DNA from: Eubacteriales Family XIII. Incertae Sedis bacterium
Lineage (GTDB): Bacteria > Bacillota > Clostridia > Peptostreptococcales > Anaerovoracaceae
Direction of reading: 5' to 3'
Length of the DNA stretch: 11,145 nucleotides
Assembly: GCA_031263875.1 (NCBI GenBank)
Contig: JAISEX010000184.1
Span: forward strand, 1 to 11,145
Shown: one piece after another, positions 1 to 11,145 of the stretch
Position numbering within the stretch: the first letter of the stretch is position 1
How the letters are laid out: every line of letters starts with the position of its first letter
Program-made: the position numbers and the translations under genes
The notes under the pieces: model-generated
What the model was told of the DNA's origin: nothing
The model's input: only the letters and a program-made list of their open reading frames with translations
Database searches by the model: none

Positions 1-111
1 GGAAATGGACAGAAATATGATGCCAAAGAAGATTGATTGGCAATTCTCCACGGATGAGGCAAGAATTAAACTGAAAAAACTCTATCCGAATATTTAGATG
101 ACGCAAGTCAC
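1..111 (+). mobile_element. Right end of an IS630-like insertion sequence (partial)
   Basis: Bases 98-111, from the transposase stop to the TA at 112-113, are the probable terminal segment. From the TA onwards the DNA matches the repeat found intact at 4410-4835 and 6288-6762. Reading inward on the - strand, the putative terminal sequence begins GTGACTTGCGTCAT. The matching left end is outside the window, so the inverted repeat and the TA duplication cannot be verified here. Confidence 0.45.
2..97 (+). CDS. C-terminal end of a transposase, probably IS630 family (5' end outside window)
   Basis: The reading frame enters from the left edge and gives 31 visible residues before a TAG stop at 95-97. 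The peptide ends in DWQFSTDEARIKLKKLYPNI. A C-terminal W-x-F-(T/S)-T-x-(D/E)-A-R-x-K-L-x-x-L-Y-P ending is, as I remember the family, typical of IS630-type DDE transposases; I could not search to confirm it. The catalytic DDE residues lie outside the window. Supporting context: 14 bases after the stop the sequence switches, exactly at a TA dinucleotide, into a repeat that is uninterrupted at two other places in this window, and IS630/Tc1-mariner elements insert at TA. The gene runs convergently towards the ribosomal-protein operon. The family call is moderately sure; that this is the tail of a real gene is more so. Confidence 0.6.
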   Translation, partial: EMDRNMMPKKIDWQFSTDEARIKLKKLYPNI

Positions 112-314
112 TAGCAGCCACGGCGCGGGTGCAGCCGAAAGGTGATGTCGAAAATTTAGAGTGCGGCGATTCATAGCCGAAGCGCACGTCATGAGCACCG
201 GGGCCGGAGCCCCGGATAGCCCGGTGGGGCTGCTTCATTGGTTTAAAATGTTTTAGTTGTTAAAATTTTAACAATCGGATTGTTTTATTCTCTCTTGGGC
301 AGCCCCATGCGCCC
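112..314 (-). repeat. Dispersed repeat copy A, truncated by the IS
   Basis: Read on the - strand, the copy runs: constant 15-mer GGGCGCATGGGGCTG (300-314), a 67-nt AT-rich core unlike the cores of the other copies (233-299), a 26-nt hairpin segment (207-232) starting CAGCCCCACCGGGC, then about 95 bp that align with copy B through a shared GGCCCCGGTGCTCA and AATTTAGA-type positions. It ends at GGCTGCTA (112-119), where the transposase-side sequence takes over. In copies B and C, GGCTGCTA continues into a 36-bp block that is missing here. The core contains a perfect 18-bp palindrome at 257-274. No coding sequence is visible in 98-400 beyond this. Confidence 0.7.
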
Positions 315-324
315 GCCCTCAACT

Positions 325-364
325 AACGAAAACGAAAGCCGCCCCCCGAAAATCCCGGGGCAGC
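325..364 (-). terminator. Intrinsic terminator of the ribosomal-protein operon
   Basis: On the - strand, 36 nt after the rplL stop codon, GCTGCCCC pairs with GGGGGCGGC-side bases (8 pairs including one G-T; arms within 338-364). This is followed by a T-rich run, TTTCGTTTTCGTT (325-337). Position and form fit a Rho-independent terminator closing the rpmG-rplL transcript. Confidence 0.75.
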
Positions 365-400
365 CTCCGTGAAACCGTACTATACGTACCGTTTTGTTCG

Positions 401-766
401 TTATTTCAGCGTCACTTTGCCGCCAACTTCTTCTATCTGCTTTGCGATAGCTTCGCCTTCGGCTTTTTCGACGGCTTCTTTGATGATCGAGGGAGCTCCG
501 TCTACGAGTTCCTTCGCTTCCTTGAGGCCGAGGCCCGTCAGTTCTCTGACGACCTTGATGACCTTGATCTTTTCCGCGCCGATTTCCGTCAGTTCCACGT
601 TGAACTCCGTCTGTTCCTCAGCGCCGCCGGCTCCCGCCGCGGGGCCTGCCGCTACGACTGCCGCCGCTGCGGAAACGCCGAATTCTTCTTCGCACGCCTT
701 GACGAGCTCGTTCAGCTCAAGTACGGTCATGCCTTTTATGGCATCAATAATTTCTTGATTAGTCAT
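401..766 (-). CDS. rplL: 50S ribosomal protein L7/L12
   Basis: The protein has 121 residues, the usual length for bacterial L7/L12. It forms dimers that bind the C-terminal helix of L10 and make the mobile stalk, which recruits and activates GTPases such as EF-Tu, EF-G and IF2. Visible layout: a helical dimerisation domain at about 1-32 (begins [20 protein letters not shown]), an Ala/Gly hinge at about 33-50, and the globular C-terminal domain at about 54-121, with the conserved [20 protein letters not shown] segment at about 67-86 and the [12 protein letters not shown] ending. An AGGAAGGA ribosome-binding site lies just upstream of the ATG, 18 nt after the rplJ stop. It is the last gene of the operon; a terminator follows. 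Identification is secure. Confidence 0.97.
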
Positions 767-784
767 GTCTTTTTTCCTTCCTCT

Positions 785-1606
785 TTATTCTTCACTCGGC
801 GCTTCTTCCGCCGTTTTTTCTGCCGGAGTTGCTTCCTCTGCAGGTTCTTCCGCAGGCGCTTCAGACGCTTCGGCCGGAGCCGCTTCTTCCGCAGGAGCTT
901 CCTCTGCAGGAACTTCCGTAGGTGCCTCAGCCGCTTCTGTCGGAGCAGCTTCCTCTGCCGGGGCTTCCGCCGCGGGTTCTTCCGCAGGCGCTTCCGCCGT
1001 TTCTACCGGAGCAGCTTCCTCTGCAGGGGCTTCCGCCGCGGGTTCTTCCGCAGGCGCTTCAGCCGTTTCTACCGGAGCAGCTTCCTCAGCCGGGGCTTCC
1101 GCCGCGGGAGCGCTTTCCGACCCCTTTTCCGCGATAGCCGCAAGCGTACGCACAAACGCACCGAGCGGGCTCTGGATGCTGCCGAGGAATTTCGCGATAA
1201 GATCTTCTCTCGACGGGATATCCGCGATTTCCTTCATCTGATCCGCGTCATAATACGTACCGTCGACATAGCCGGCCTTAAAGGTCATCTTGCGGTATTC
1301 CTTCATAACGCCGTTCAGCACCCGCGCGGCAACCGTCGCGTCGTCGTAGCTGACCGCGAGCGCGCTCGGGCCGTCGAGGACTTCCGCGAGCTGCGCATGG
1401 TCGGTCCCGTCTATAGCCCGCTTGATAAGCGTGTTCTTGTAGACCTTGTAATCGACTTCCGCTTCGCGCAGCTTCTTCCGCATCGCGTCCGCTTCGGAAA
1501 CCGTGATGCCGATGTAATCGATGACGACCGCAGACGCGGCTTTATCAAGTTTTCCCTTGATCTCGTCGATAACTGTCTGCTTTTGCTTCAAACTTTCTAC
1601 TGACAT
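785..1606 (-). CDS. rplJ: 50S ribosomal protein L10 with a long acidic repeat tail
   Basis: L10 is the base of the ribosomal stalk: its N-terminal domain binds 23S rRNA and its C-terminal helix carries L7/L12 dimers. It normally also represses its own operon. I place the start at the ATG 1604-1606, which is preceded by GGAAAGGAG; a longer frame to 1729 would read through the leader RNA and adds no L10 homology. The product has 273 residues. Residues 1-162 are a complete L10 (conserved VVIDYIGITVSEADAMRKKL, YKVYKNTLIKRAI, and a C-terminal helix SPLGAFVRTLAAIAEKG). L10 is usually about 165-175 residues. The remaining ~105 residues are almost only Ala, Pro, Glu with a few Thr, Val and Ser, and include four 22-residue repeats at 171-258. 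The frame is open to a normal TAA stop 18 nt before rplL. Confidence 0.96.
   Translation of the reverse strand: MSVESLKQKQTVIDEIKGKLDKAASAVVIDYIGITVSEADAMRKKLREAEVDYKVYKNTLIKRAIDGTDHAQLAEVLDGPSALAVSYDDATVAARVLNGVMKEYRKMTFKAGYVDGTYYDADQMKEIADIPSREDLIAKFLGSIQSPLGAFVRTLAAIAEKGSESAPAAEAPAEEAAPVETAEAPAEEPAAEAPAEEAAPVETAEAPAEEPAAEAPAEEAAPTEAAEAPTEVPAEEAPAEEAAPAEASEAPAEEPAEEATPAEKTAEEAPSEE
833..1096 (-). repeat. Four tandem 66-bp repeats inside rplJ
   Basis: The repeats encode four successive 22-residue units beginning APAEEAAP; the first two units are identical in protein and the third and fourth have drifted. All are in frame with rplJ, so copy-number change would keep the gene open. At DNA level the units share long near-identical stretches (for example around GCAGCTTCCTCTGC on the + strand). 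Confidence 0.9.
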
Positions 1607-1640
1607 TCTTTCTCCTTTCCGGTCTTTTATTTTCTTTTCC

Positions 1641-1683
1641 GGAAAATAAAATGACCTGTTTTGTCCGTACACAAACAGGTCAT
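1641..1683 (-). terminator. Attenuator hairpin between the L10 leader and rplJ
   Basis: There is a perfect 11-bp stem (ATGACCTGTTT, 1651-1661, with 1673-1683) and an 11-nt loop. On the - strand it is followed at once by TTTATTTTCC. It lies downstream of the L10 leader and 45 nt before the rplJ start, which is the position expected for a regulated terminator in leader-controlled rplJL operons. Whether it is conditional is inferred. Confidence 0.65.
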
Positions 1684-1699
1684 AGATATTGCTATCTGC

Positions 1700-1775
1700 T
1701 TTCCTGCCTCGGCGGGACGTGCGTCGCACATTTGAGCTTTTTTAATAGCTCCCGCTGTCTACGGTAGTATCACAA
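1700..1775 (-). promoter_or_regulatory. L10 leader (autoregulatory mRNA element upstream of rplJ)
   Basis: On the - strand the segment contains CCGTAGACAGCGGGAGC and, downstream, CCCGCCGAGGCAGG. From memory these are the two conserved strands of the Gram-positive ribosomal protein L10 leader that mimics the 23S rRNA binding site of L10. The fold can be drawn: GCGGG (1751-1755) pairs with CCCGC (1712-1716), enclosing two small hairpins, AGCT/AGCT around an A-rich loop and GTGCG/CGCAC. Known role of the family: L10 (or L10-L12 complex) binds here and lowers rplJL expression. It occupies the otherwise empty 191 nt between rplA and rplJ. Confidence 0.8.
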
Positions 1776-1797
1776 AAACCTTACGGTTATGTGTTCT

Positions 1798-2502
1798 TTA
1801 GTTCTGAGTACCCACTCTGAGCGGATTGATCTTGATTCCCGGCCCCATAGTCGAAGCCACGGTCACGCTCTTGAGATACTGCCCTTTCGCCGCCGACGGT
1901 TTCGCCTTGATGATGGCGTCGATCAGCGCGTTGAAATTATCGGCGAGCTTTTCGGTCCCGAACGACGCCTTGCCGATCGGCGTATGGATAATGTTCGTCT
2001 TATCAAGACGATATTCCACCTTGCCGGCTTTGATATCTTCAAGCGCCTTCGTGACGTCCATCGTAACGGTACCGGACTTCGGATTCGGCATCAGCCCTTT
2101 CGGACCGAGTATCTTACCGAGGCGACCGACGACTCCCATCATATCGGGCGTCGCCACGACAGCGTCAAACTCAAACCAATTTTCCTTCTGGATTTTTTCC
2201 GCGAGTTCTTCCGCGCCGACATAATCGGCTCCGGCTTCCTTCGCTTCGGCCTCTTTCGGCCCCTTCGCAAACACGAGCACCCGCAGGGATTTACCCGTGC
2301 CGTGCGGCAGGACGATAGCGCCTCTGACCTGTTGGTCAGCGTGGCGGCCGTCAACGCCGAGCTTGACATGGATTTCTATCGTTTCGTCAAACTTGGCCCG
2401 CGCCGTCTTTTGGACCAGCTCGATAGCCTCGGACATCTCGTAGAGATTTTGCTTTTCTACGAGGCCCGCGACCTCTCTGTAGCCCTTTCCTCTTTTCGGC
2501 AT
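1798..2502 (-). CDS. rplA: 50S ribosomal protein L1
   Basis: The protein has 234 residues, the normal length. L1 binds 23S rRNA helices at the L1 stalk and assists release of deacylated tRNA from the E site. In many bacteria it also represses its own mRNA. Visible signatures: the basic N-terminus [11 protein letters not shown], the [13 protein letters not shown] motif at about 59-71, [16 protein letters not shown] at about 131-146, and the C-terminal [19 protein letters not shown] region. A strong AAGGAGGT site stands 9 nt before the ATG. The gene follows rplK by 56 nt, and its TAA is followed by the L10 leader. No L1-binding site was identified with confidence. Confidence 0.97.
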
Positions 2503-2558
2503 TTACCTTACCTCCTTGTGGTTCTACCGGCCTTGCTCCGCGCAAGAACCTCCCACAT

Positions 2559-2984
2559 TTAGTCCTCTACTACGATCCCCATGCTTCTCGCCGTGCCTCT
2601 GATCATTGCAGTGGCGGCTTCGAGATTTGCGGCGTTAAGATCGACCATTTTGGTTTGAGCGATCTCTTCCGCCTGAGCCGTCGTGATTTTCGCAACCTTG
2701 TTGCGGTTCGGCTCGCCTGACGCTTTTTGGAGATTGGCGGCTTTCTTCAGCAGAACTGCCGCCGGCGGTGTCTTCGTGATAAAGCTGAAAGAGTTATCCG
2801 CGTACACGGTGATCACCACCGGGATGATCATGCCGGGCTGATCCTGCGTCTTCGCGTTGAACTGCTTACAGAAGTCCATGATGTTGACGCCCTTCTGACC
2901 GAGCGCGGGTCCTACCGGCGGCGCAGGCGTCGCCCCGCCCGCAGGTATCTGCAGCTTGATATAGCCATCGATTTTCTTTGCCAT
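2559..2984 (-). CDS. rplK: 50S ribosomal protein L11
   Basis: The protein has 141 residues, the normal length. With its 23S rRNA site L11 forms the GTPase-associated centre; it is the target region of thiostrepton and is needed for RelA-type stringent signalling. The N-terminal domain shows the Pro-rich [20 protein letters not shown] segment (about 21-40). The C-terminal RNA-binding domain (about 73-141) carries [13 protein letters not shown] and [13 protein letters not shown] and ends in RSMGIVVED. The ATG is preceded by GGAGGAGGAACG. It is separated from nusG by 34 nt and from rplA by 56 nt, in the standard nusG-rplK-rplA order. Confidence 0.97.
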
Positions 2985-3018
2985 CGTTCCTCCTCCTTTC
3001 CCAAAAGATTATAGGAAA

Positions 3019-3762
3019 CTACCGGTACAGCTTATCTACTTGGTCGTAAACAAGTTCCACCGGAGTATCTCTGCCAAACATTGATATGCGCGCCCGAAGC
3101 GTTTCCTTCTCCGGATGCACTTCCTCGACCACGCCCGTGAAGCTCTCGAACGGCCCGTTAATGACCTTGATGCTATCCCCGACGTTGATATCGAGTTCGA
3201 TATATACCTTCTCGATCCCCATGCGGCGCACTTCCTCTTTCGTCAGCGGCACGGGTTTGTTGCGCTGCTGCCCCGAATCGTACCCGACAAAGCCGGTCAC
3301 GCCCTGGGTGTTGCGCACGAGATACCATGACTTATTCGTAACGACCATCTTCACGAGAACATAGCCGGGGAACATCTTGCGGCTCTTGATCTTGCTCTGG
3401 CCGTCCTTCTGGACCATAACATCGTGCGTCGGGACCGTGATCTTCTGGATCAGCTCGCTCATCGGCATGCCCGTCCCGTCGACGTTGTCGTCCTTATAGC
3501 CTTTTATCAGCTTTTCGATAGTCGATTTCACCTTGACCTCATGGCCGGAATACGTGTGGATAACGTACCAGCGCGACGCCGATTCGTCGCTGTCGTCATA
3601 GACATCGTCGGAAACATCGGCGCGCCGTTCAGTTTCGGCGGCCTCGGTTTCGGCCTCAGCTTCAGCGGCTTCGTCCGCAGCGATCCCATTCCCGGTCATC
3701 TCGTCCGCGGCGGTTTCGCCCTCGAGTATCTCGTCTGTTACATTCATATATTCTTCGCTCAT
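3019..3762 (-). CDS. nusG: Transcription termination/antitermination factor NusG with an acidic N-terminal extension
   Basis: The protein has 247 residues; ordinary NusG is about 175-185. The conserved NGN domain begins at residue 64 (RWYVIHTYSGHEVKVKS) and includes the KMFPGYVLVKM strand. The KOW domain is at about 193-222 (VGDSIKVINGPFESFTGVVEEV). NusG binds the RNA polymerase clamp, modulates pausing and elongation, and links to Rho or ribosomal S10. Residues 1-63 are very acidic (D/E/A-rich, no predicted domain). The start is 3 nt after the secE stop and has only a weak ribosome-binding site, so translation is probably coupled to secE; a Met at residue 6 is an alternative start. Even with M22 as start most of the acidic segment would remain. 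Confidence 0.95.
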   Translation of the reverse strand: MSEEYMNVTDEILEGETAADEMTGNGIAADEAAEAEAETEAAETERRADVSDDVYDDSDESASRWYVIHTYSGHEVKVKSTIEKLIKGYKDDNVDGTGMPMSELIQKITVPTHDVMVQKDGQSKIKSRKMFPGYVLVKMVVTNKSWYLVRNTQGVTGFVGYDSGQQRNKPVPLTKEEVRRMGIEKVYIELDINVGDSIKVINGPFESFTGVVEEVHPEKETLRARISMFGRDTPVELVYDQVDKLYR

Positions 3763-3765
3763 AGA

Positions 3766-4038
3766 TTAGGAACCTATTTCTATTCCGAGCAGCTTCGACA
3801 ATCCCGCGAGGAACGCGCTGTCAACGCCCCATATCATCAACCCAAAAAACGTACACGCAATAAGCACGACGACGGTATATGATACAAGCTCGCGCCGCGT
3901 CGGCCACACGACTTTCTTCGTTTCGATTTTAACGCCCTTGAAGTAATCCTTCATACGCCCCCTCTGGCGGGGCTGCGCGACCCTTTTCTTCTTTTTATCC
4001 TTGTCCGTCACCGCGGGCTTTTGCTTATCCTTAGGCAT
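3766..4038 (-). CDS. secE: Preprotein translocase subunit SecE
   Basis: The protein has 90 residues and is the short, single-membrane-helix SecE type found in most Gram-positive bacteria. SecE clamps SecY in the SecYEG channel. Layout: a Lys/Arg-rich cytoplasmic N-terminus (1-30), the conserved amphipathic segment with KKVVWPTRREL at 41-51, and one hydrophobic helix at about 52-74. The reading frame ends EIGS with TAA at 3766-3768. It lies 23 nt after rpmG and almost touches nusG, the standard context. An AGAGGA site precedes the ATG. Confidence 0.95.
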   Translation of the reverse strand: MPKDKQKPAVTDKDKKKKRVAQPRQRGRMKDYFKGVKIETKKVVWPTRRELVSYTVVVLIACTFFGLMIWGVDSAFLAGLSKLLGIEIGS

Positions 4039-4061
4039 AGCTGTTTCCTCTTTCTCCGCGC

Positions 4062-4211
4062 TTACTTCGTTTCCTTATGAAGCGTTTCCTTGCGGCAGAA
4101 CTTGCAATACTTTTTCAGTTCCATACGATCCGGATTATTTTTCTTGTTCTTCATCGTATCGTAATTTCTCTGTTTGCACTCCGTGCATTCCAACGTGACT
4201 TTTACTCGCAT
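4062..4211 (-). CDS. rpmG: 50S ribosomal protein L33, zinc-binding form
   Basis: The protein has 49 residues, beginning [19 protein letters not shown], with two CxxC pairs (C9/C12 and C36/C39). It is therefore the zinc-ribbon type rather than the Cys-less type used under zinc limitation. L33 sits near the E site of the large subunit. I chose the ATG at 4209-4211 because an AGGGAG ribosome-binding site precedes it; the open frame extends to 4280 but the added 23 residues are not L33-like. It is the first gene of the operon and is followed closely by secE. Confidence 0.96.
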
Positions 4212-4290
4212 AACAATCTCCCTACCAGCGCAAGAAACAAACGAGCCTCTCTCTCGGGCCCCTTCGCATTTCAAACACATTCAATCTAAA

Positions 4291-4328
4291 AGGCTGTCGC
4301 ATTCGGCACGTAACCTCGCTGACAGCCT
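4291..4328 (-). promoter_or_regulatory. Hairpin at the 5' end of the rpmG-rplL transcript
   Basis: An 8-bp perfect stem (AGGCTGTC, with GACAGCCT) encloses a 22-nt loop and on the - strand is followed by TTTTAG. The predicted transcription start (6-8 nt after the -10 box) falls at or within its 5' arm, so the mRNA would begin with the hairpin. Role unknown: it could protect the 5' end or act as a weak attenuator. About 80 nt of leader follow before the rpmG start codon. Confidence 0.5.
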
Positions 4329-4332
4329 CATT

Positions 4333-4362
4333 ATTATATAACTATTTCAAGTTCTGTGTCAA
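4333..4362 (-). promoter_or_regulatory. Strong housekeeping-type promoter of the ribosomal-protein operon
   Basis: On the - strand a perfect TTGACA (4357-4362) and a perfect TATAAT (4333-4338) are separated by 18 nt. It is the only near-consensus promoter seen in the window and lies about 120 nt upstream of rpmG, consistent with the high expression expected for this operon. Confidence 0.85.
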
Positions 4363-4409
4363 CGATTTCGCGGAAATTTAAAGTTTGAGGAAATTTGGGT
4401 CGTCAGTGC

Positions 4410-4835
4410 GGGCGCATGGGGCTGCCGTAACCGGCCTGAGCGGGTTTTGCGTGATGGGTAATTATGGAATTTCGCGCGAGTCGAAAGTAGCGGTCAGACA
4501 GCCCCACCGGGCTCTTCGGGGCTGCGCTACCGCTCCGGCCCCGGTGCTCAGGACGAGCGCATGAAATATGAACCGCTTCCGTGATCTAAATTCCGATATT
4601 TCCCTTTATCCGCGTCCGCGCCGCGGCTGCTACCGCACCCCTCCTATCCCTTGCGCGGGACATATGCAAACTTTCCGTGCCGTCCCAGAAACGTCTATCA
4701 TTTCGGGCTGATGCCGTTCCCCTGTGCGGGCAAAACCTCCGACACGCCCGTCCTCACTGCGGCGAACTGATTATAGTACAAACACCAAAAAGAAACGAGA
4801 ACCGGTCACGACATGGGCGCCATCTCCCTGCCGTC
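4410..4835 (+). repeat. Dispersed repeat copy B
   Basis: This is a 426-bp copy. Order: constant 15-mer GGGCGCATGGGGCTG (4410-4424), a 74-nt unique core (4425-4498), a 26-nt hairpin segment (4499-4524; 7-bp stem CAGCCCC/GGGGCTG), about 95 bp shared with copy A, a 36-bp block (4622-4657) identical to copy C, and a terminal 113-bp block (4723-4835) shared with C and D. It fills the gap between the rpmG promoter and the downstream end of the trxB operon, 4363-4845. No convincing gene was found there: short frames across it have no ribosome-binding site and no known domain. Confidence 0.75.
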
Positions 4836-4845
4836 TGCCACCTTA

Positions 4846-5241
4846 TTATTTACTCTTTTTCGTTGATATTCTCGCGACAATTCTTATAATCACTGTCACA
4901 ATCGCAAACACCACGGTATAGTTCAGGAAAATGTCGCGATATGCGTTTGGGTGCAGTTCAACGAAAAATCCGCTGAAAAACACCGTAGCGAATACCATTG
5001 CAATGGTGACAACATATGGCACTATCACGTTGAGTGCCTCGACGCGAAAACTCGCTTTCCACGACATCCAAAATGCAGTCACGCCTATTAAGGTAATCAT
5101 CGCCCTGAGAATGATGTGAAAATTCGAGTCGCTCTCCGTTCCGTTAATCAGTTGGATTACACTGCTAATAATCGTCACAACGCTGAATATTGCCGCAAAA
5201 AGGACTGCACCGCGATAGAGTTCTCTCTTGATGTTGCTCAT
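4846..5241 (-). CDS. Small four-helix integral membrane protein of unknown function
   Basis: The protein has 131 residues, beginning MSNIKRELYRGAVLFAAIFS. Four hydrophobic segments are visible at about 11-31, 43-62, 72-93 and 105-125, with short loops and basic residues at both ends (KRELYR at the N-terminus, RISTKKSK at the C-terminus), which fits both termini in the cytoplasm. I do not recognise a motif that fixes a function. Size and topology resemble small clostridial DUF families of four-helix proteins (for example DUF3021 or DUF6608), but this is only a resemblance. It lies 28 nt downstream of trxB on the same strand, so the two are probably cotranscribed; an AGGAAGGA-like site stands somewhat far (about 11 nt) from the ATG. 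No clear terminator follows; repeat copy B begins at once. Confidence 0.75.
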   Translation of the reverse strand: MSNIKRELYRGAVLFAAIFSVVTIISSVIQLINGTESDSNFHIILRAMITLIGVTAFWMSWKASFRVEALNVIVPYVVTIAMVFATVFFSGFFVELHPNAYRDIFLNYTVVFAIVTVIIRIVARISTKKSK

Positions 5242-5269
5242 ATCTCAAAGTCCTTCCTCGCCGCAATTT

Positions 5270-6208
5270 TCACTCCAGCAACTTCTCGCACTGCACGGCG
5301 GCGATAGCGCCGTCGGCGGCGGCCGTCACGATCTGGCGCAGGGTCTTTTTCCGCACGTCGCCCACAGCGTAGACGCCGGCGATACTCGTGCGCATTTCCT
5401 CGTCCGTCACGATATAGCCCTGCTCCATCGCAAGTTTCCCCTCGAATATCTCCGTCTGCGGCAGCATACCGACAAAGACGAAGAAGCCGAAACTGCTTCC
5501 CGCGTCGGCGTGTATTTCCCGCACGTCGCCCGTCCGCACATTTTCGACGACGACCGCGTCGAGCAAATCGCCGCCTTTCAGTTCGCGGACAACGGTGTCA
5601 AGCATAAACTCGACATTATTACACCGGAAGATCTTCTCCTGAATGGCCTTGTCCGCCCGAAACTCGTCGCGCCGGTGCACGATCGTGACTTTGCGCCCGA
5701 ACTTCGCGAGATGGACGGCTTCTTCAAGCGCGGAATTCCCGCCCCCGGCAACATAGATATCGAGCCCCGTAAAGAACGGCCCGTCGCAGGTCGCGCAGTA
5801 GGAAACGCCCCTGCCCGTAAACTCGGATTCGCCCGGCACGTCAAGCGTCCGCGGAACATTCCCCGTCGCGATTATCAGCGTGCGCCCCCGGTAGACGCCC
5901 GCCTTGCCCGTCAGCGTTTTTACCTCACCGTCAAGCTCCACGCCCGTTATTTCGTCGGTCACCGTGTCGGGGCCAAACGATTTCGCCTGCTCCGCAAGCC
6001 GCATCGAAAACTCCGCGCCGGACTCGCCCTTGACGCCGCCGGGATAATTATCGATCTCCGCCGTATTGAATATAAGCCCGCCGTGTATGCCCTTCTCGAT
6101 CAGCAGGACCTGAAGATTCGCGCGCCGCGCGTATATCGTCGTGGAAAGCCCCGCGGGGCCGCCGCCGAGAATCAGCACATCGTAGATTTTTTCATTTACG
6201 TCCATCAT
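5270..6208 (-). CDS. trxB: Thioredoxin reductase (NADPH, FAD)
   Basis: The protein has 312 residues, the usual length for low-molecular-weight bacterial thioredoxin reductase. It passes electrons from NADPH through FAD and a redox-active disulfide to thioredoxin. Visible: FAD-binding GGGPAG (15-20), the active-site CATC (138-141), the NADPH-binding GGGNSA (155-160) with HRRDEFRA (178-185), and the second FAD motif GVYAVGDVR (278-286) followed by the conserved RQIVTAAADGAIAA. The HRRxxxR motif being intact supports NADPH use rather than a ferredoxin- or NADH-dependent homologue. The start has two consecutive ATGs behind AAAGAGGGG. No thioredoxin gene is adjacent; the downstream neighbour is the four-helix membrane protein. 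Confidence 0.95.
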   Translation of the reverse strand: MMDVNEKIYDVLILGGGPAGLSTTIYARRANLQVLLIEKGIHGGLIFNTAEIDNYPGGVKGESGAEFSMRLAEQAKSFGPDTVTDEITGVELDGEVKTLTGKAGVYRGRTLIIATGNVPRTLDVPGESEFTGRGVSYCATCDGPFFTGLDIYVAGGGNSALEEAVHLAKFGRKVTIVHRRDEFRADKAIQEKIFRCNNVEFMLDTVVRELKGGDLLDAVVVENVRTGDVREIHADAGSSFGFFVFVGMLPQTEIFEGKLAMEQGYIVTDEEMRTSIAGVYAVGDVRKKTLRQIVTAAADGAIAAVQCEKLLE

Positions 6209-6238
6209 ATCCGCCCCTCTTTATTAATCGCTCTCTTA

Positions 6239-6270
6239 ATCATATCATAAATCAGTCTGTTCATTGTCAC
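6239..6270 (-). promoter_or_regulatory. Possible promoter of trxB
   Basis: On the - strand there is a -35-like GTGACA (6265-6270, one base from TTGACA). Two overlapping TATGAT hexamers follow, at 6244-6249 and 6239-6244, giving spacers of 15 or 20 nt. Neither spacing is ideal, so this is a candidate only. It is 31 nt or more from the trxB start. Confidence 0.35.
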
Positions 6271-6287
6271 CCGCGGGTTTTGACTGT

Positions 6288-6762
6288 GGGCGCATGGGGC
6301 TGTCCTTGTGGATTGCTTATAATGGGTGCTGCTGAAAACTTCTGCCACGTGTCGGTTTCCATATTTTTCTTGACCATCAAGGCAGCCCCACCGGGCTATC
6401 CGGGGCTGCGCGTCGCCTGTTTTACGCGGCTTCAGCCGCAAGGTAAAACAGGACAGCGAAGCGAGCAACGCGAGCGGAGGAGTGAGCGCAGCGAACGTTG
6501 CTCCGGCCGCTTCGCGTATGACAAGCGACAGAGATACAGAACATCGTGTTTCCATTTTATGGAATTTGCTTTACGTCTGGATCCGCTTCGCGGCTGCTAC
6601 CGCACCCCTCCTATCCCTTGCGCGTCGCCGTCGCTGCGCTCCGGCTCATATATGCGGGAAAAGCACCCGACCCACCCCTCCTCCTACGGCGAACTGCTTT
6701 ATCACACGCACACCAAACCGCGCGGGCGAGGACACAACATGCGCCCCCATCTCCCCGCCGTC
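6288..6762 (+). repeat. Dispersed repeat copy C
   Basis: This is a 475-bp copy in the same orientation as B. Order: constant 15-mer (6288-6302), an 80-nt unique core (6303-6382), the 26-nt hairpin segment (6383-6408), a copy-specific stretch with two long hairpins (6416-6515), the 36-bp block identical to copy B (6589-6624), and a terminal block (6651-6762) shared with B and D. Open frames run across it in all three + frames, as expected for GC-rich non-coding DNA; none has a ribosome-binding site or known domain. Confidence 0.75.
6416..6515 (+). other. Two long hairpins inside repeat copy C
   Basis: The first hairpin has CCTGTTTTAC (6416-6425) pairing with GTAAAACAGG (6443-6452), continued inside by GCGGC/GCCGC around TTCA. 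The second has GCGAAGCG plus AGCAACG (6456-6470) pairing with CGTTGCT plus CGCTTCGC (6496-6515) across a 5-nt bulge. They have no counterpart in copy B, so they look like a secondary insertion or an expandable arm. Confidence 0.6.
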
Positions 6763-6783
6763 CCCCGTCATTAAAACTGACAA

Positions 6784-6807
6784 AGCCCCCGAGGGGGATC
6801 GGAGGCT
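6784..6807 (-). terminator. Terminator-like hairpin with no known gene in front of it
   Basis: AGCC and CCGA (6784-6792) pair with TCGG and GGCT (6799-6807) with one mismatch and a short G-rich loop. On the - strand the hairpin is followed by TTTGTCAGTTTT. The only thing upstream on that strand is the structured segment 6876-6993. Confidence 0.45.
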
Positions 6808-6875
6808 ATTCAGACGCTTACATCAGAACCGCGCGTGTACGGCTCTTATGTTGCCAGTATGCAATTTATTGTGTT

Positions 6876-6993
6876 CGGAGCCGCTGAGCTTTTCATTCCG
6901 CCGCCGTTCGCATTCCCGAAGTAATACCGCTCCGGGAATAGGCAGTTTCGCTGTGTTGCTCTGGTAAATTCATGAGCAGCTCAGGCGGCTCCG
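6876..6993 (-). ncRNA. Candidate structured RNA, unknown family
   Basis: A 15-bp closing helix with a single bulge joins CGGAGCCGCTGAGCT (6876-6890) to AGCTCA and GCGGCTCCG (6978-6993). Inside it three more hairpins can be drawn: TGCTC/GAGCA (6957-6961 with 6974-6978), CAG/CTG around TTTCG (6943-6953), and ATTCCCG/CGGGAAT (6912-6918 with 6933-6939). Strand is assigned as - because a terminator-like hairpin lies 69 nt beyond on that side and a TATAAT (7068-7073, without a good -35) stands on the other. It does not show the signatures I know for tRNA, tmRNA, RNase P RNA or SRP RNA. Confidence 0.4.
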
Positions 6994-7559
6994 TATCCGT
7001 CTTGCAGTGACCCGAAATTTTTCTGCAGACGCGTTTAGTGATAATGTATATTTATCTATCAATAAATATTATACACCCATTTTAAGAATTAAGTTATGAA
7101 ATCTTTAAATTTTCGTATTCTACAACGAACCGGCTTTTTCAGAATAATCATGAAACGAGGGTCGTTCCCGCGAATTGCCGGTTTGCGCGTAATGAAGTAT
7201 TTCACTCACAAATGTTTTTATTGCGGGAAGTTTTGCGCCGCGATGTTGAATAAAGCGCATTACCAAGCGGTTATTTCGCCGCGGACGGCGTTCGGCCGGA
7301 ATGTCCGGCGGGCCGATACCAGCACGAAACCGGCTTGTTTCACGGGCTCTTCCTGTGCCGGTAACGGAGCGGATGGATCGCGCCGCGCGTGTTCCCGATT
7401 GTATATGTTACAAAAAAGGGCTGAAAAATCGTTTATTTTACGCGATTAGAGGACTCCGGCAGCGGAGATTTTGGAAATACATTGGTTTTATTTTCCCGAA
7501 ACAACCATTAGCGGAAACCTGCTCCTTGCGCTATCTTTTTGATGTGATACCATACGCCT
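6994..7559. other. Gene-free stretch upstream of the MFS gene
   Basis: I see no supportable gene in these 566 bp. A 117-codon frame at 7096-7449 (+) has no Shine-Dalgarno, no recognisable domain, and a composition rich in Arg, Cys and Ser that looks like translated non-coding DNA. Positions 7031-7110 are markedly AT-rich, with an imperfect GTATATTTAT-type hairpin around 7045-7075; from 7260 on the DNA is GC-rich again. The last 35 bp hold a possible MFS promoter. Confidence 0.5.
7526..7553 (+). promoter_or_regulatory. Possible promoter directly abutting the MFS start codon
   Basis: TTGCGC (7526-7531) and TACCAT (7548-7553) are separated by 16 nt. Both are imperfect matches to TTGACA and TATAAT. 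If real, transcription would begin at or next to the ATG at 7560. Confidence 0.3.
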
Positions 7560-8765
7560 ATGATATATGCCACAAAATCAAATCTTTGGACAAAGAATTT
7601 TATACTGGCAATTTTCGCAAACATGTTTGCAAGCCTGGTGTTTTATCTGCTGATGACCACGCTTGCCCTCTATGTGCGGGCGAAATTTCACGCGCCGGCA
7701 AGCGTCGCCGGTCTAGCCGTGGGCATTTACGTGCTCGGCGCGCTGATCGGGAGGCTGTTTACGGGGAAATATATCGAACTCGCCGGCAGGCGAAAGACGC
7801 TCTATTTCGGCGGTATGACGTTTTTCCTCGCGTCGCTACTCTATCTCATTCCCGTTGGACTGCCGCTTTTGCTCGCGATGCGTTTTTTGCACGGCGTGAC
7901 GTTCGGGATCATCGGCACGGCGCTTCCCGCCATCGCCGTCAGTTCCATACCCGACGAGCGAAAGGGCGAGGGCGTCGGTTTCTTCACCCTCAGCAATACC
8001 ATCGCGACGGCAATCGGGCCGTTTACCGGCGCTTACGTGCTGGAACATTACCATTACGGCGCTATTTTTATTACCTGCTCGGCGTTCGCGTTCTGTACGC
8101 TGCTGGTCGTGCTGTTTATGAATGCCGCCGATCTCGCGGGGAATAGGCGCGGGGACGCGGCTTGCGCCGCCTCTGGTTTTCGCTTCAGCGCGTTTTTCGA
8201 GCGGGCCGCCATTCCCGTTTCTCTGGTGATCCTGCCGGTGGGAATGTGCTACGCGACGGTGACGTCGTTTCTTACCGCCTACGCGGAGCACGACGGCCTG
8301 CCGGGGATCGTGCCGGTGTACTTTATCGTTTACTCCGCGTTTATACTGATCGGAAGGCCGCTGACCGGTAAAATACTTGACCGGCGCGGCGACAACGCGG
8401 CTATGATCCCGCCGCTGATCAGCGCGAGCGTCAGTCTGGTGGCGCTCGCGTTCGCGCGCAGCATGCCGGCCTTTCTCGCCAGCGCGGCGCTGATGGCGTT
8501 CGGCCTCGGGACCCTCGTATCGTGCGGTCAGGCGATCGCCGTCAAGATGTCGCCGGGGGAGCGCATCGGGACGGCGACCTCCACTTACATGTCGTTTTCC
8601 GATACCGGCCTCGGGATCGGCCCCGTTCTTATGGGCCTGATTATACCGCGGAAGGGCTACCGCGGAATGTTTCTCGTCGCTTCGGTTATTATCGCGCTGG
8701 ATCTGCTGCTGTATATTCTCGTGCACGGGCGCAAAACGGGGTATAATAAAGGAAAGGCGCGGTAG
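7560..8765 (+). CDS. Major facilitator superfamily transporter
   Basis: The protein has 401 residues, typical for a 12-helix MFS permease of the drug/solute exporter type. Hydrophobic segments alternate with short loops over the whole length, with a longer polar central loop at about 189-212. The MFS motif A loop between helices 2 and 3 is visible as GRLFTGKYIELAGRRKT (64-80), and its second-half counterpart as GRPLTGKILDRRGD (265-278). The substrate cannot be told from sequence: antiporter families for drugs, sugars, amino acids or purines share this pattern. The start at 7560 is forced: an in-frame TGA lies at 7545-7547 and helix 1 begins within about 12 residues. No Shine-Dalgarno is present. 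It stands alone; the cytidylate-kinase-like gene begins 321 nt further on. Confidence 0.9.
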   Translation: MIYATKSNLWTKNFILAIFANMFASLVFYLLMTTLALYVRAKFHAPASVAGLAVGIYVLGALIGRLFTGKYIELAGRRKTLYFGGMTFFLASLLYLIPVGLPLLLAMRFLHGVTFGIIGTALPAIAVSSIPDERKGEGVGFFTLSNTIATAIGPFTGAYVLEHYHYGAIFITCSAFAFCTLLVVLFMNAADLAGNRRGDAACAASGFRFSAFFERAAIPVSLVILPVGMCYATVTSFLTAYAEHDGLPGIVPVYFIVYSAFILIGRPLTGKILDRRGDNAAMIPPLISASVSLVALAFARSMPAFLASAALMAFGLGTLVSCGQAIAVKMSPGERIGTATSTYMSFSDTGLGIGPVLMGLIIPRKGYRGMFLVASVIIALDLLLYILVHGRKTGYNKGKAR

Positions 8766-8775
8766 GATCGCGGCG

Positions 8776-8888
8776 GGCGGCACGGGAAGGATGCTTGCGC
8801 GGTTTTGCCATCTCGCGTTTTGCATCGCTTGCGCGAGAAAGGGGTACGCCGGAATGAGGACGAGTGCGATGTGTGGTTTGCCCGCATA
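8776..8888 (-). repeat. Dispersed repeat copy D, degenerate terminal part only
   Basis: Read on the - strand, 42 bp at 8847-8888 align without gaps to 4723-4764 of copy B (30 of 42 identical by my count, starting TATGCGGGCAAA). The alignment ends at a CATCC-CCGTGCCGCC block corresponding to the end of B; both segments are 113 bp long. The 15-mer, hairpin and 36-bp block are not seen here. Elsewhere in the 321-bp gap 8766-9086 I find no gene; - strand open frames there are antisense to, or run out of, the repeat. Confidence 0.5.
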
Positions 8889-9086
8889 AGAAGCACGGCG
8901 AGGCGGAGCCGTCGTAGCCGGGGCGCAGGACCGGAATGGCGGACGATGACGCAGCGGTGAGGAGATGCGATACGAAGCGCCGTCGCAAGCCGGAGCGCGT
9001 GTCTGCGGCGGGGGACGATGAAAGGAACGCGCAAAGAATTATCAGAGGATTGCGCCGCATGGCGGCAGGTTTGAAAGGAGCGTCAG

Positions 9087-9677
9087 ATGAAACAGTACAT
9101 TATCGCTATCGCGCGCGAATACGCGTCGGGCGGCAGGATTATCGGAAAGAAACTCGCCGGCGAGCTCGGCATCGCTTTTTACGACAAGGAAATCATCTCA
9201 TTGGCGGCGAAGGAGAGCGGATTCTCCGAGGAATACCTGGAATCGGCCTCCGACACCCGCACGCCGTTCTTCCTCTATAATGTCTACGGCTACAGCAACA
9301 TTATGCCGCTGCCGGAGCAGATATACATAGCGGAATCGAACGCGGTGCGGACGCTCGCGGACAAGGGCTCCTGCGTCTTTATCGGCAGGAACGCAGCGCG
9401 CATCCTCTCGGATCACGAAAACCTCATCAAAATTTTCATACACGCCCCGCTCGAAAAACGCATCGAGGTGGCGCGCGACATCTACCACGATGAGGCCGAT
9501 AATATGAAGGCGTTCGTCATCCGTCGCGACAAGGGGCGCGAGGAATACAGCCGGCATTTCTCGGATTACCGGTGGCGCGACCTGCGCAATTATCATCTCT
9601 GCGTTGACAGCAGCATCGGCTTTGACGCCACGGCCTCTGTCATTCGGACGTACGTCGAGAAGTTTTTGGAGGGGTAA
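9087..9677 (+). CDS. Cytidylate-kinase-like family protein
   Basis: The protein has 196 residues and matches the Pfam PF13189-type 'cytidylate kinase-like' group common in Clostridia. These are related to CMP kinase but distinct from the Cmk that is often linked to ribosomal S1. Visible: an N-terminal beta strand and P-loop variant IAIAREYASGGRIIGKKLA (7-25), the AFYDKEII segment (30-37), a GRNAARIL segment (100-107) and the lid-like IRRDKGREEYSRHFSDYRW (145-163) that ends in the nucleotide-binding fold. Family role by analogy is phosphoryl transfer to a (deoxy)nucleotide; the true substrate of these proteins is not established, so I give no symbol. GAAAGGAG precedes the ATG at a good distance. 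The gene ends 67 nt before a strong bidirectional terminator. Confidence 0.88.
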   Translation: MKQYIIAIAREYASGGRIIGKKLAGELGIAFYDKEIISLAAKESGFSEEYLESASDTRTPFFLYNVYGYSNIMPLPEQIYIAESNAVRTLADKGSCVFIGRNAARILSDHENLIKIFIHAPLEKRIEVARDIYHDEADNMKAFVIRRDKGREEYSRHFSDYRWRDLRNYHLCVDSSIGFDATASVIRTYVEKFLEG

Positions 9678-9744
9678 GGCCGTAATTAGGGGTCGAATGT
9701 GAGGAAGGTGAGCCGCTTCGCTTCCTGATGGGGGAATTGTGTAA

Positions 9745-9776
9745 AGGAACCGCACGTTGTTGTGCGGTTCCTCTTT
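9745..9776. terminator. Bidirectional intrinsic terminator between converging genes
   Basis: A perfect 11-bp stem (AGGAACCGCAC, 9745-9755, with 9762-9772) has a 6-nt loop. It is followed by CTTTT on the + strand and by TTTACACAATT on the - strand. It can stop the kinase-like gene (+) and the surface-protein gene (-). Confidence 0.85.
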
Positions 9777-9804
9777 TGCTGATTTGAATTTTATTTCGTT
9801 CGGC

Positions 9805-11145
9805 CTAGCCGATCCAAACCCCGCTTGCGTTGAAATAGTAGGTTTTGCCGCCGATGGTCTGTTTCCCAGTCAGCATTTTGCCGCTCCCGGAAAGATAGTA
9901 CCACTTTCCGCCGGCGTCTTTGAGCCATTTATTTGCGATCATCGCGCCATTTCCGGAAAGATAATACCACGCGTTTCCGTCTTTCACCCAGCCAGTTTTC
10001 ATCGCGCCGTTTGAGGCAAGATAGTACCAGGTGCCACCGTCTTTTACCCAACCGGTCTGCATGGCTCCGCTTGGAGCAAGGTGGTACCACGTGTTACCGT
10101 CTTTCGCCCAGCCGGTCTGCATCGCGCCGTCTTCCGCGAGGTAATACCAGGTGTTTTTGTCTTTGATCCAACCGGTTTCCGCTTCGCCGTCAGTGATATA
10201 ATTCCACACGCCGTCATCGTTTTTTACCCAACCGTTATCTGCCTGCGGAGGATTATCCGGCGGGGTGGTGTCTTCGGGATCGTCGGGATCGTCAGGGTCA
10301 TCGGGATCGCCACCACCGGCGTTCGGATCGTTTTTATATGTGGCTGTTACCGCTACGGCTTTCGCGGGCATGGTAAAGGTCGTTGATTCTTTCGTTGCGT
10401 CGGTGAGCGTGACATCGCTTGTTGTCCACGCGTCGAAGACTTTACCGTCCGGAGCCGCATTTGCGGTAATGCTTACCGTCGCGCCTTCTTCAAATGAGCC
10501 ACTGCCGGCGCCGTTCGTTACCGTTACGGTATAGGTTGTGGCCGTGGGCGGCGGGTTGACGGGCGGAGGGCTGACAGCCGTCCACTGCGCGTACAGCGTG
10601 TGATTTGCCGTTTCGGTGACCTCACTTGCGCTCGTGATTTTCGTGCCGTTTGTCGCTGCCGTAAACCAACCAGCGAAGGTATAATCGCTGCGTGTGGGCG
10701 TCGGAAGCTCTCCGTATATTTCGCCCTGCGTGACCGGCTTGCTTGCGTTTTCAGAGGATAGTGCGTCGCCGCCATTCGGGTCGAAGGTGACGGTCATGAT
10801 TTGTGGAACATTCTGCGGGGCAAACATGAAGTTTTCTAAATTGCTTCTAATGCTGTCGAGACCGATTATCGCAGATTCGGATGGCAGGTAGTTACCCTCA
10901 CAAAAAAGTCGTTTAAGTGAAGTGAGATTTGAAACATCAAGCGTGATGAGTTTGTTATTGCTGCAATGAAGAGCTTCGAGAGAAGTCAGTCCTGTAACGT
11001 TAAGGGTCGTAAGTTCGTTATCCCAGCAATTAAGCAAACTGAGCGAAGCAAGATTTGAGACATCAAGCGCGGTGAGTTCATTCTTCCCGCAATAAAGGAA
11101 TTCAAGCAAAATGAGCTTCGAAACATCAAGCGTAGTGAGTTTATT
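9805..11145 (-). CDS. Secreted/surface protein: leucine-rich repeats, Listeria-Bacteroides repeat, cell-wall-binding repeats (5' end outside window)
   Basis: 446 residues are visible; the frame is open to the right edge, so the TTG at 11107-11109 is internal and the signal peptide is not seen. Order, counted from the first visible residue: internalin-like leucine-rich repeats of 21 residues (1 to about 112; pattern L-x-C-x-x-N-x-L-T-x-L-D-V-S); a Listeria-Bacteroides repeat (about 117-189; VTFDPNGGD...YTFAGWFTA...LYAQWT); a Pro-rich linker; a second InlB-like or Bacterial-repeat domain (about 203-272; VTNGAGSGSFEEGATVSI...VFDAW...TATY); a DDP-rich acidic linker (276-300); and about seven choline/glucan-binding-type repeats of 20 residues (305-446; GWVKDGNTWYYLASNGAMKT). 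Such proteins bind surfaces or partner proteins with the N-terminal half and hold to wall polymers with the C-terminal half. No sortase motif is present. The exact ligand is unknown. Confidence 0.9.
   Translation of the reverse strand, partial: NKLTTLDVSKLILLEFLYCGKNELTALDVSNLASLSLLNCWDNELTTLNVTGLTSLEALHCSNNKLITLDVSNLTSLKRLFCEGNYLPSESAIIGLDSIRSNLENFMFAPQNVPQIMTVTFDPNGGDALSSENASKPVTQGEIYGELPTPTRSDYTFAGWFTAATNGTKITSASEVTETANHTLYAQWTAVSPPPVNPPPTATTYTVTVTNGAGSGSFEEGATVSITANAAPDGKVFDAWTTSDVTLTDATKESTTFTMPAKAVAVTATYKNDPNAGGGDPDDPDDPDDPEDTTPPDNPPQADNGWVKNDDGVWNYITDGEAETGWIKDKNTWYYLAEDGAMQTGWAKDGNTWYHLAPSGAMQTGWVKDGGTWYYLASNGAMKTGWVKDGNAWYYLSGNGAMIANKWLKDAGGKWYYLSGSGKMLTGKQTIGGKTYYFNASGVWIG
9870..10233 (-). 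repeat. 60-bp tandem repeats coding the wall-binding modules
   Basis: About six units with a 60-bp period encode the 20-residue GW-x-K-x-x-x-x-WYYL modules. The DNA of neighbouring units is close (shared ACCGTCTTT and CAGCCGGT/CAACCGGT segments on the + strand), so unit number could change by recombination without breaking the frame. Confidence 0.85.
10890..11145 (-). repeat. 63-bp tandem repeats coding leucine-rich repeats
   Basis: Four units with a 63-bp period are visible. They share GAAACATCAAGCG-type segments on the + strand and encode T-L-D-V-S turns. The array continues beyond the right edge. Confidence 0.85.

Follow-up and report, generated by a model that had tools for sequence, protein, structure and literature searches.

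Intergenic hairpin repeats with near-constant arms and alternative cores in the draft genome of an uncultured clostridial bacterium

Contig JAISEX010000184.1 of an Eubacteriales Family XIII. Incertae Sedis bacterium (GCA_031263875.1) was analysed over positions 1 to 11,145, a stretch called the window below. It carries three copies (A, B and C) of a dispersed hairpin element consisting of a 5' arm, GGGCGCATGGGGC, a core and a 3' arm, GCCCCACCGGGC. The family is lineage-specific and is present as hundreds of intergenic hairpin copies in this one uncultured clostridial bacterium. The reading preferred here, with moderate confidence, is that of a non-autonomous intergenic palindromic repeat that resembles two known kinds, the REPINs and the BOX elements, and in which copies exchange their loops, probably as strands switch at the arms. 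REPINs are doublets of repetitive extragenic palindromic (REP) sequences that form hairpins, according to the available text of Bertels and Rainey 2011 (PMC3116915); BOX elements of Streptococcus are built as boxA-boxB-boxC, according to that of Croucher et al. 2011 (PMC3049150).

Abundance, arms and core families

The 15-mer GGGCGCATGGGGCTG occurs exactly at 300-314 (-), 4410-4424 (+) and 6288-6302 (+) of the window; three or more matches at up to 3 mismatches were obtained in 2 of 200 dinucleotide shuffles. It is followed after 67, 74 and 80 nt by CAGCCCCACCGGGC, the start of a 26-mer that ends in ...CGGGGCTG in copies B and C and in ...CGGGGCTC in copy A, which has one pair less. Spacings and ends are thus as the sequence-only reading of the window had given them. 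The shared part is better bounded as GGGCGCATGGGGC...GCCCCACCGGGC than as that 15-mer and 26-mer. The TG and CA adjoining the two arms belong to a core-side stem; copies of one core family, T4, have AC and GT instead.

The draft genome comprises 1,865,263 bases in 319 contigs and is 67.8% complete. The 15-mer was found in it at 353 sites at up to 2 mismatches (183 and 170 on the two strands), against 8 for the reversed pattern, and at 208 sites at up to 1 mismatch. The draft has 142 occurrences of the exact pair GGGCGCATGGGGC-N50-80-GCCCCACCGGGC; none of 295 other genomes from the same family contains it. Five of 40 relatives scanned for the 15-mer at up to 1 mismatch have one site each, with no 3' arm within the following 180 nt. 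A genome of the same genus contains neither the 15-mer nor the 3' arm, and no comparably frequent 12-mer occurs in 31.8 kb of that genome. The exact pair gave 0 matches in viral contigs. Elsewhere in the public genomes scanned it is present in one contig only, JAISAH010000129.1 of a Gracilibacteraceae bacterium metagenome-assembled genome; since this record holds only two exact 3' arms in 3.4 Mb, both contigs may be misplaced in the bin. The tail motif and element X, described below, were each found in 0 of 30 relatives. Literature searches, mostly without full texts, found no published description of this element.

The anatomy of the element was determined in the window and 120 further contigs, together 854,166 bases (8,509 of them N) or 46% of the draft. 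Arms were called at up to 1 mismatch and paired within 420 nt, which gave 226 5' arms, 206 3' arms and 196 pairs; 30 5' arms have no partner inside 420 nt, some of them at contig ends. The loop is 2-7 nt long in 45 of the 196 pairs, often as a GGGGC-NNN-GCCCC hairpin, and a long core is present in the other 151. Constant flanks around a variable core, the layout proposed from the three window copies, are therefore real and abundant.

Clustering of the 151 long cores on both strands gave groups of 51, 51, 45, 2, 1 and 1. The final labels are T1 (51), T4 (46, and 5 inverted), T2 (22), T3 (22, and 1 inverted), other (4) and minimal (45). Copy A belongs to T1, copy B to T3 and copy C to T2. The cores of these three copies are indeed mutually dissimilar, with local scores of 10-16 on both strands (shuffled mean 14, 99.9% level 29), and the early description of an unrelated core in each copy holds for the window. 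It does not hold genome-wide. The same reading had named a genome-wide search as its own test, to fail if only three copies existed or if the cores aligned once more were included: 353 sites exist, and the cores do align, 147 of the 151 falling into the four families. A hypervariable core was accordingly rejected; the middle is a choice among cassettes.

Two further relationships were rejected. The joint cluster of 45 suggested that T2 is an inverted T3, and profiles show the link to be a single inverted T3 copy, L059. Early hints that T2 is related to a second repeat (family Y) were not confirmed (0 of 22 cores). Some T4 cores hold further inserts. In L041 and L052 (and L042), T4 cores and tails contain a different palindromic element, whose ends are TAGAGTTGTAACGAAATTA. 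In L102, from 6249, a T1 core is flanked by two copies of the 5' arm in inverted arrangement (GGGCGCATGGGGCTG...CAGCCCCATGCGCCC), so that a 5' arm stands in place of the 3' arm.

Arm constancy was measured on copies found by core profile, not by their arms. The exact 13-nt 5' arm and the exact 3' arm are present in 48 and 49 of 55 copies found by T1 cores, 18 and 17 of 21 by T2 cores, 19 and 19 of 27 by T3 cores, and 35 and 30 of 59 by T4 cores; among the T3 and T4 copies, whose figures are lower, are inverted and nested copies as well as free T3-like elements. Pairwise core identity within families is 0.57-0.65, or 0.65-0.70 with stems included and scored globally.

Stem, tail and separate histories of core and tail

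Core-side stems were compared with stems whose partners had been re-dealt. Watson-Crick pairing over the first eight core positions is 0.59 in T1 (0.53 shuffled), 0.68 in T2 (0.59), 0.59 in T3 (0.52) and 0.83 in T4 (0.73); 0-1 of 2000 shuffles in each family reached the observed value, in a control that ignores kinship among copies. Slid pairings gave only 0.15-0.42, below the observed pairing. Stem pairs changed on both sides number 49 (T1), 21 (T2), 13 (T3) and 25 (T4) cells. The arm stem is part of the minimum-energy fold in 117 of 132 full copies. Against mononucleotide shuffles T1 cores have a mean z of -2.1; T2 (-0.2) and T3 (-0.7) are not unusually structured.

The hairpin does not stand alone. 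Repeat depth at the 5' arm (105 copies) has a median of 0 at -50, 2.5 at -25 and 23 at 0, and fades over 200-900 nt downstream; the sharp rise and the fading show that a mosaic composite begins with the hairpin at its 5' end. Of 110 occurrences of the tail motif CGCACCCCTCCTATCCCTTG, 109 are preceded by a 5' arm within 600 nt. Among 162 arms with enough sequence the motif lies downstream of 92, upstream of 1 and on neither side of 69. At least five module types follow the 3' arm, past which the sequence is mostly TATCCG-like. GGGGC-type tails contain a second hairpin with a tip of 3 nt in 47 of 103 cases and of 12 nt or more in 32 of 103. The 196 copies have AT-rich sequence directly upstream of the 5' arm; it closes with T-K-Y, where position -3 is T in 80% and position -1 is C or T in 84%. 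A long palindromic element, TTAGGGTATAGGGACCC...ACCCTA, lies directly past the 3' arm in 6 labelled pairs (L039, L040, L062, L064 and others).

The copies are extragenic. Only 4 of 160 arm sites overlap a gene predicted by a home-made gene caller in 80 contigs plus the window. By the same gene caller, the upstream gene is co-oriented with the element in 44 and opposed in 58 of the 102 copies that have predicted genes on both sides.

Core label and tail module are not associated (chi-square 17.8, null mean 16.1, P = 0.34; n = 170 of 196, with inverted T4, 'other' cores and 'other' tails left out and L059 still scored as T2). Within the four families no correlation was found between the identity of cores and that of tails (Mantel p 0.119, 0.171, 0.127 and 1.000) or of the upstream 40 nt (p 0.35-0.67), and the tails of copies nearest by core are ordinary. 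The two halves of one part served as positive control: core halves correlate with one another in T2 (p 0.033), T3 (0.009) and T4 (0 of 2000); tail halves do so in T1, T3 and T4 (p 0.002-0.006), and marginally in T2 (0.06). Core and tail are thus shown to have separate histories in T2, T3 and T4, the families for which the half-against-half controls allow the conclusion.

Reversed cores between unchanged arms were found in 5 of 51 T4 and 1 of 23 T3 copies. A poorly resolved tree of T4 requires five changes of orientation, and its well supported branches force at least two; inversion of T4 once or several times are both possible.

One locus carries different tips in two contigs, L125 and L127. 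The upstream 207 nt are 92.3% identical, and 1,042 nt downstream, comprising the tail end and a lipoprotein-like gene, are 94.4% identical. Between them L125 has a 73-nt T1 core (T1 profile E = 3e-16) and L127 the loop AA; the 20 nt before the arm and the second hairpin's tip also differ between the two. L125 and L127 are most simply read as strain alleles. In the draft's own L071 a T2 copy lies at another position, nine codons into an open frame whose start resembles that of this lipoprotein-like gene. A 37-bp segment forms a direct repeat around the composite in L125 (33 of 37) and is single in L071. This comparison indicates insertion differences; one locus cannot define the mechanism.

The T3 core has relatives outside the hairpin. 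Element X is a dispersed element with a consensus of about 120 nt and the ends TTACGAAAC and GTTTCGTAA. A profile built from 10 copies outside hairpins scored 8 bits or more in 18 of 21 T3 cores and in 0 of 420 shuffles, 0 of 51 T1, 0 of 22 T2 and 0 of 39 T4 cores, with the same outcome as a version that includes two hairpin-borne copies. The seeds came from the T3 profile, so the comparison is not blind, and X reaches past the T3 region to both ends. On this similarity, T3 derives from, or shares an origin with, element X. Another dispersed repeat, GGGTACCTCTGAAAAC..., of about 65 nt, occurs in L039, L051, L161 and L185 as inverted pairs about 100 nt apart, with 8 copies in the 854 kb.

Proposed loop exchange, related repeats and alternative explanations

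Constant arms, few and unrelated tips in both orientations, minimal tips and the missing linkage to the tail are the outcome expected from strand switching between the arms of different copies. The elements would spread as mobile DNA. A strand that copies or repairs one hairpin would switch to the arm of another copy and then back, and the loop would be exchanged. A switch to the opposite arm would give an inverted core, and a skip during switching a minimal loop. The compensatory changes fit loop exchange, because every cassette would bring both sides of its own stem.

Several points weigh against this reading. The exchange itself was not directly observed, and the switching step is inferred. 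The contigs examined make up 46% of a draft that is 68% complete, and the arms were partly chosen by similarity. The kinship-blind stem control has been mentioned; the core-side stems of T1-T3 are moreover far from perfect, with many pairs broken beyond about position 4. The T1 core halves are uncorrelated (p 0.27), which leaves the decoupling test without power in T1. Of the five inverted T4 copies, four have an inverted copy as nearest neighbour, the pattern that the spread of a single inversion would leave. L125 and L127 are contigs of one bin and may be paralogues instead of alleles, and they represent one locus only.

Repeats of related layout are known, and the early statement that no named family has this layout was too strong. 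In the available text of PMC3049150 the same BOX ends can hold boxB and boxD in S. suis, and BOX elements insert into one another. The likeness lies in constant end modules with interchangeable internal modules, here the arms with four core families and minimal loops; it is the layout that is compared, not the sequence. Going by the same text, BOX elements differ in varying mainly the tandem copy number of boxB, whereas the element described here has either no cassette or a single one, in one or the other orientation, from a set of four unrelated ones. By analogy, the family appears to work like a REPIN in its arms and spacer and like BOX in its modularity. The suggestion of an element like a miniature inverted-repeat transposable element (MITE) is supported if the term is taken broadly, for a palindromic repeat that is non-autonomous, lies between genes in both orientations to them and shows insertion differences between strains. 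In the narrower sense the arms are imperfect inverted repeats with the tail outside them, and no inverted repeat bounding the whole composite was established. The observation that bears on a short target-site duplication is the 37-bp direct repeat at the one locus of L125; for a related autonomous transposon it is the 0 matches in the draft to PF01797, PF01548 and PF01609.

In the case in which the element were a REPIN in the strict sense, arms and core (about 100 nt) would move as single-stranded DNA by means of a RAYT-type Y1 transposase and insert before the tail, the core being a weakly constrained spacer. This is considered unlikely. REPINs as characterised in the accessible parts of PMC3116915 form a hairpin with compensatory changes, in which two inverted arms are highly conserved and the spacer, of fixed length, is less so; they are present in hundreds of intergenic copies. 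The 196 pairs with near-invariant arms around a spacer agree with this, as do extragenic location, spacer length, lower spacer conservation and compensatory hairpin changes, the last within the limits of the control named above. The AT-rich motif before the 5' arm could be a cleavage or target site. On the other side, no RAYT gene was found in the 68%-complete draft: PF01797 (Y1_Tnp) gave 0 matches there, about a third of the genome being absent, and gave matches in five control genomes. No GTAG or CGTC tetranucleotide tag stands beside the palindrome, where the AT-rich T-K-Y stretch and the TATCCG-like sequence are found. With the tag missing and no RAYT match in an incomplete draft, the family was not filed as a REPIN. 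It differs further in its four non-homologous core families and minimal loops and in a mosaic tail fixed to one side. The hairpin accompanies 109 of 110 tail motifs and so is more than an insert met now and then before a tail, and the fixed tail would be unexplained.

Nested insertion is likewise an improbable account. Small palindromic elements would have inserted into the loop of an older GC-rich hairpin, after which the full hairpins spread; T1-T4 would be the inserts and the 2-7 nt loops the empty sites. The match of T3 cores to X, an element with inverted ends, speaks for it, as do the two core orientations, the inserts held by T4 cores and a T4 core inside another hairpin stem, that of a tail (L091). 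The available text of PMC3733652 reports REPs inserted within small GC palindromes with loops of 3-4 nt, T. roseum GTAG-23 being an example. The GTAG/CGTC REPs described there also resemble the present element in their GC-rich stems and in alternative loop types within a family; they differ in their GTAG/CGTC tag, and the loop cassettes here are 60-80 nt long and non-homologous. Several results oppose nested insertion. No free T1 or T4 copies were found outside arms or hairpin stems in the 854 kb. Each family has its own complementary stem beside the arms, where insertion would leave loop bases. If each family arose by one insertion and then spread, core and tail should be linked, but no linkage was seen for T2-T4. 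Nested insertion explains T3 best and the missing linkage worst.

A bolder form of loop exchange is speculative. The arms could serve as hairpin-based exchange sites: several hundred intergenic hairpins would have cassettes from a pool, at least one of them (T3) from element X, loaded, swapped, flipped or removed, and no dedicated recombinase gene of any known type would take part. Y1 (PF01797), IS110 (PF01548), DDE_Tnp_1 (PF01609) and reverse-transcriptase genes gave 0 matches each in the 68%-complete draft; other transposase families were outside the search. The notion of a capture cassette, raised from the window alone, receives partial support from the relation of T3 to a separate element with terminal inverted repeats, from cores in both orientations and from the locus with differing cores in two contigs. 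Integron attC sites are likewise folded hairpins with constant ends and a variable terminal part. They have a 7-nt core-site motif, which is not present in the arms of the element, and the copies described here are dispersed and not in cassette arrays. A loop-capture system of this kind might, very tentatively, have an effect similar to that of integron cassettes, but at a hairpin tip.

That selection keeps the elements at many genes as functional RNA or as regulatory DNA (terminators, attenuators or, for T1, an operator array) is very improbable. The frequent arm stem in the predicted folds and the better than shuffled folding of T1 cores would fit, and the centre of T1, TTGTTAAAATTTTAACAA, fits the Rex motif TTGTTANNNNNNTAACNN as printed in the available part of PMC5886521. 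As a Rex operator T1 was rejected: the motif fits, but no Rex domain (PF06971) was found in the 68%-complete draft and no other support was seen. T1-like sites outside the elements number 4 at up to 2 mismatches, including one T1 copy cut by a contig end. The orientation to genes is mixed, no T-run follows the stem and T2 and T3 cores are not unusually structured. The only Rfam match in the window is L10_leader; at E of 1 or less copies A and B gave one sub-threshold snoRNA match and none, respectively. The proposal of an RNA family is not supported, there being no fitting Rfam family and no common orientation to genes. An assembly artefact or chance repeat has practically no likelihood: contigs often end in or near an element, as repeats break assemblies, but 353 sites stand against 8 for the reversed pattern, copies sit inside long contigs, and most cores are distinctive between 13-nt arms far shorter than usual assembly words.

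REPINs, BOX elements and mosaic repeats are known, and change of their inner modules has mostly been deduced from differences in copy number. In the present family the arms barely vary, there is a small, countable set of mutually unrelated alternatives, and the histories of core and tail are separate, which permits a direct question: template switching, insertion or transposase. If the exchange is confirmed, bacterial palindromes would be a route to shuffle short sequences such as promoters, operators and RNA domains among intergenic regions.

Copies and genes in the window

The features of the three copies are listed in Table 1. The repeat nested in the tail of copy C is among the commonest of the sample, with a 94-nt k-mer consensus that occurs 55 times on both strands of 555 kb. 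An inverted 72% match to part of the copy B tail lies at 8844-8886; it has no hairpin and is perhaps a decayed composite.

Table 1. Parts of the three element copies in the window
Feature	Position	Strand	Basis
Copy A 5' arm GGGCGCATGGGGC	302..314	-	exact match
Copy A core, family T1, central TTGTTAAAATTTTAACAA-type hairpin	231..301	-	clustering
Copy A 3' arm GCCCCACCGGGC	219..230	-	
Copy A tail, 70% aligned with copy B tail	112..218, right limit approximate	-	self-blast, 112-232 against 4499-4632
Copy B 5' arm	4410..4422	+	exact match
Copy B core, family T3, ATGGAAAATAATGGAAT type, related to dispersed element X	4423..4500	+	clustering; profile X against T3 cores
Copy B 3' arm	4501..4512	+	
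Copy B mosaic tail, tail motif at 4625-4642	4513..4800, end approximate	+	right limit by eye
Copy C 5' arm	6288..6300	+	exact match
Copy C core, family T2, TTATTTATAAAGGAT...TTTCCATATTTTTCC type	6301..6384	+	clustering
Copy C 3' arm	6385..6396	+	
Copy C mosaic tail, tail motif at 6592-6609	6397..6780, end approximate	+	right limit by eye
Second repeat CCTGTTTTACGCGGC...AACGTTGC, nested in copy C tail	6415..6501	+	limits by eye

Ribosomal protein L10 (NF000955) is encoded at 785-1606 (-). Its family match stops at residue 161 of 273, and it has an Ala/Glu/Pro-rich C-terminal extension of about 100 residues with 22-residue repeats (66-nt period). The corresponding L10 leader (Rfam RF00557, 59.5 bits) lies at 1638-1782 (-). 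NusG, at 3019-3762 (-), has an acidic N-terminal extension of about 64 residues ahead of the family match. An open-ended surface-protein-like frame at 9805-11145 (-) contains leucine-rich-like repeats and six 20-residue GW...Y repeats, which resemble cell-wall-binding repeats.

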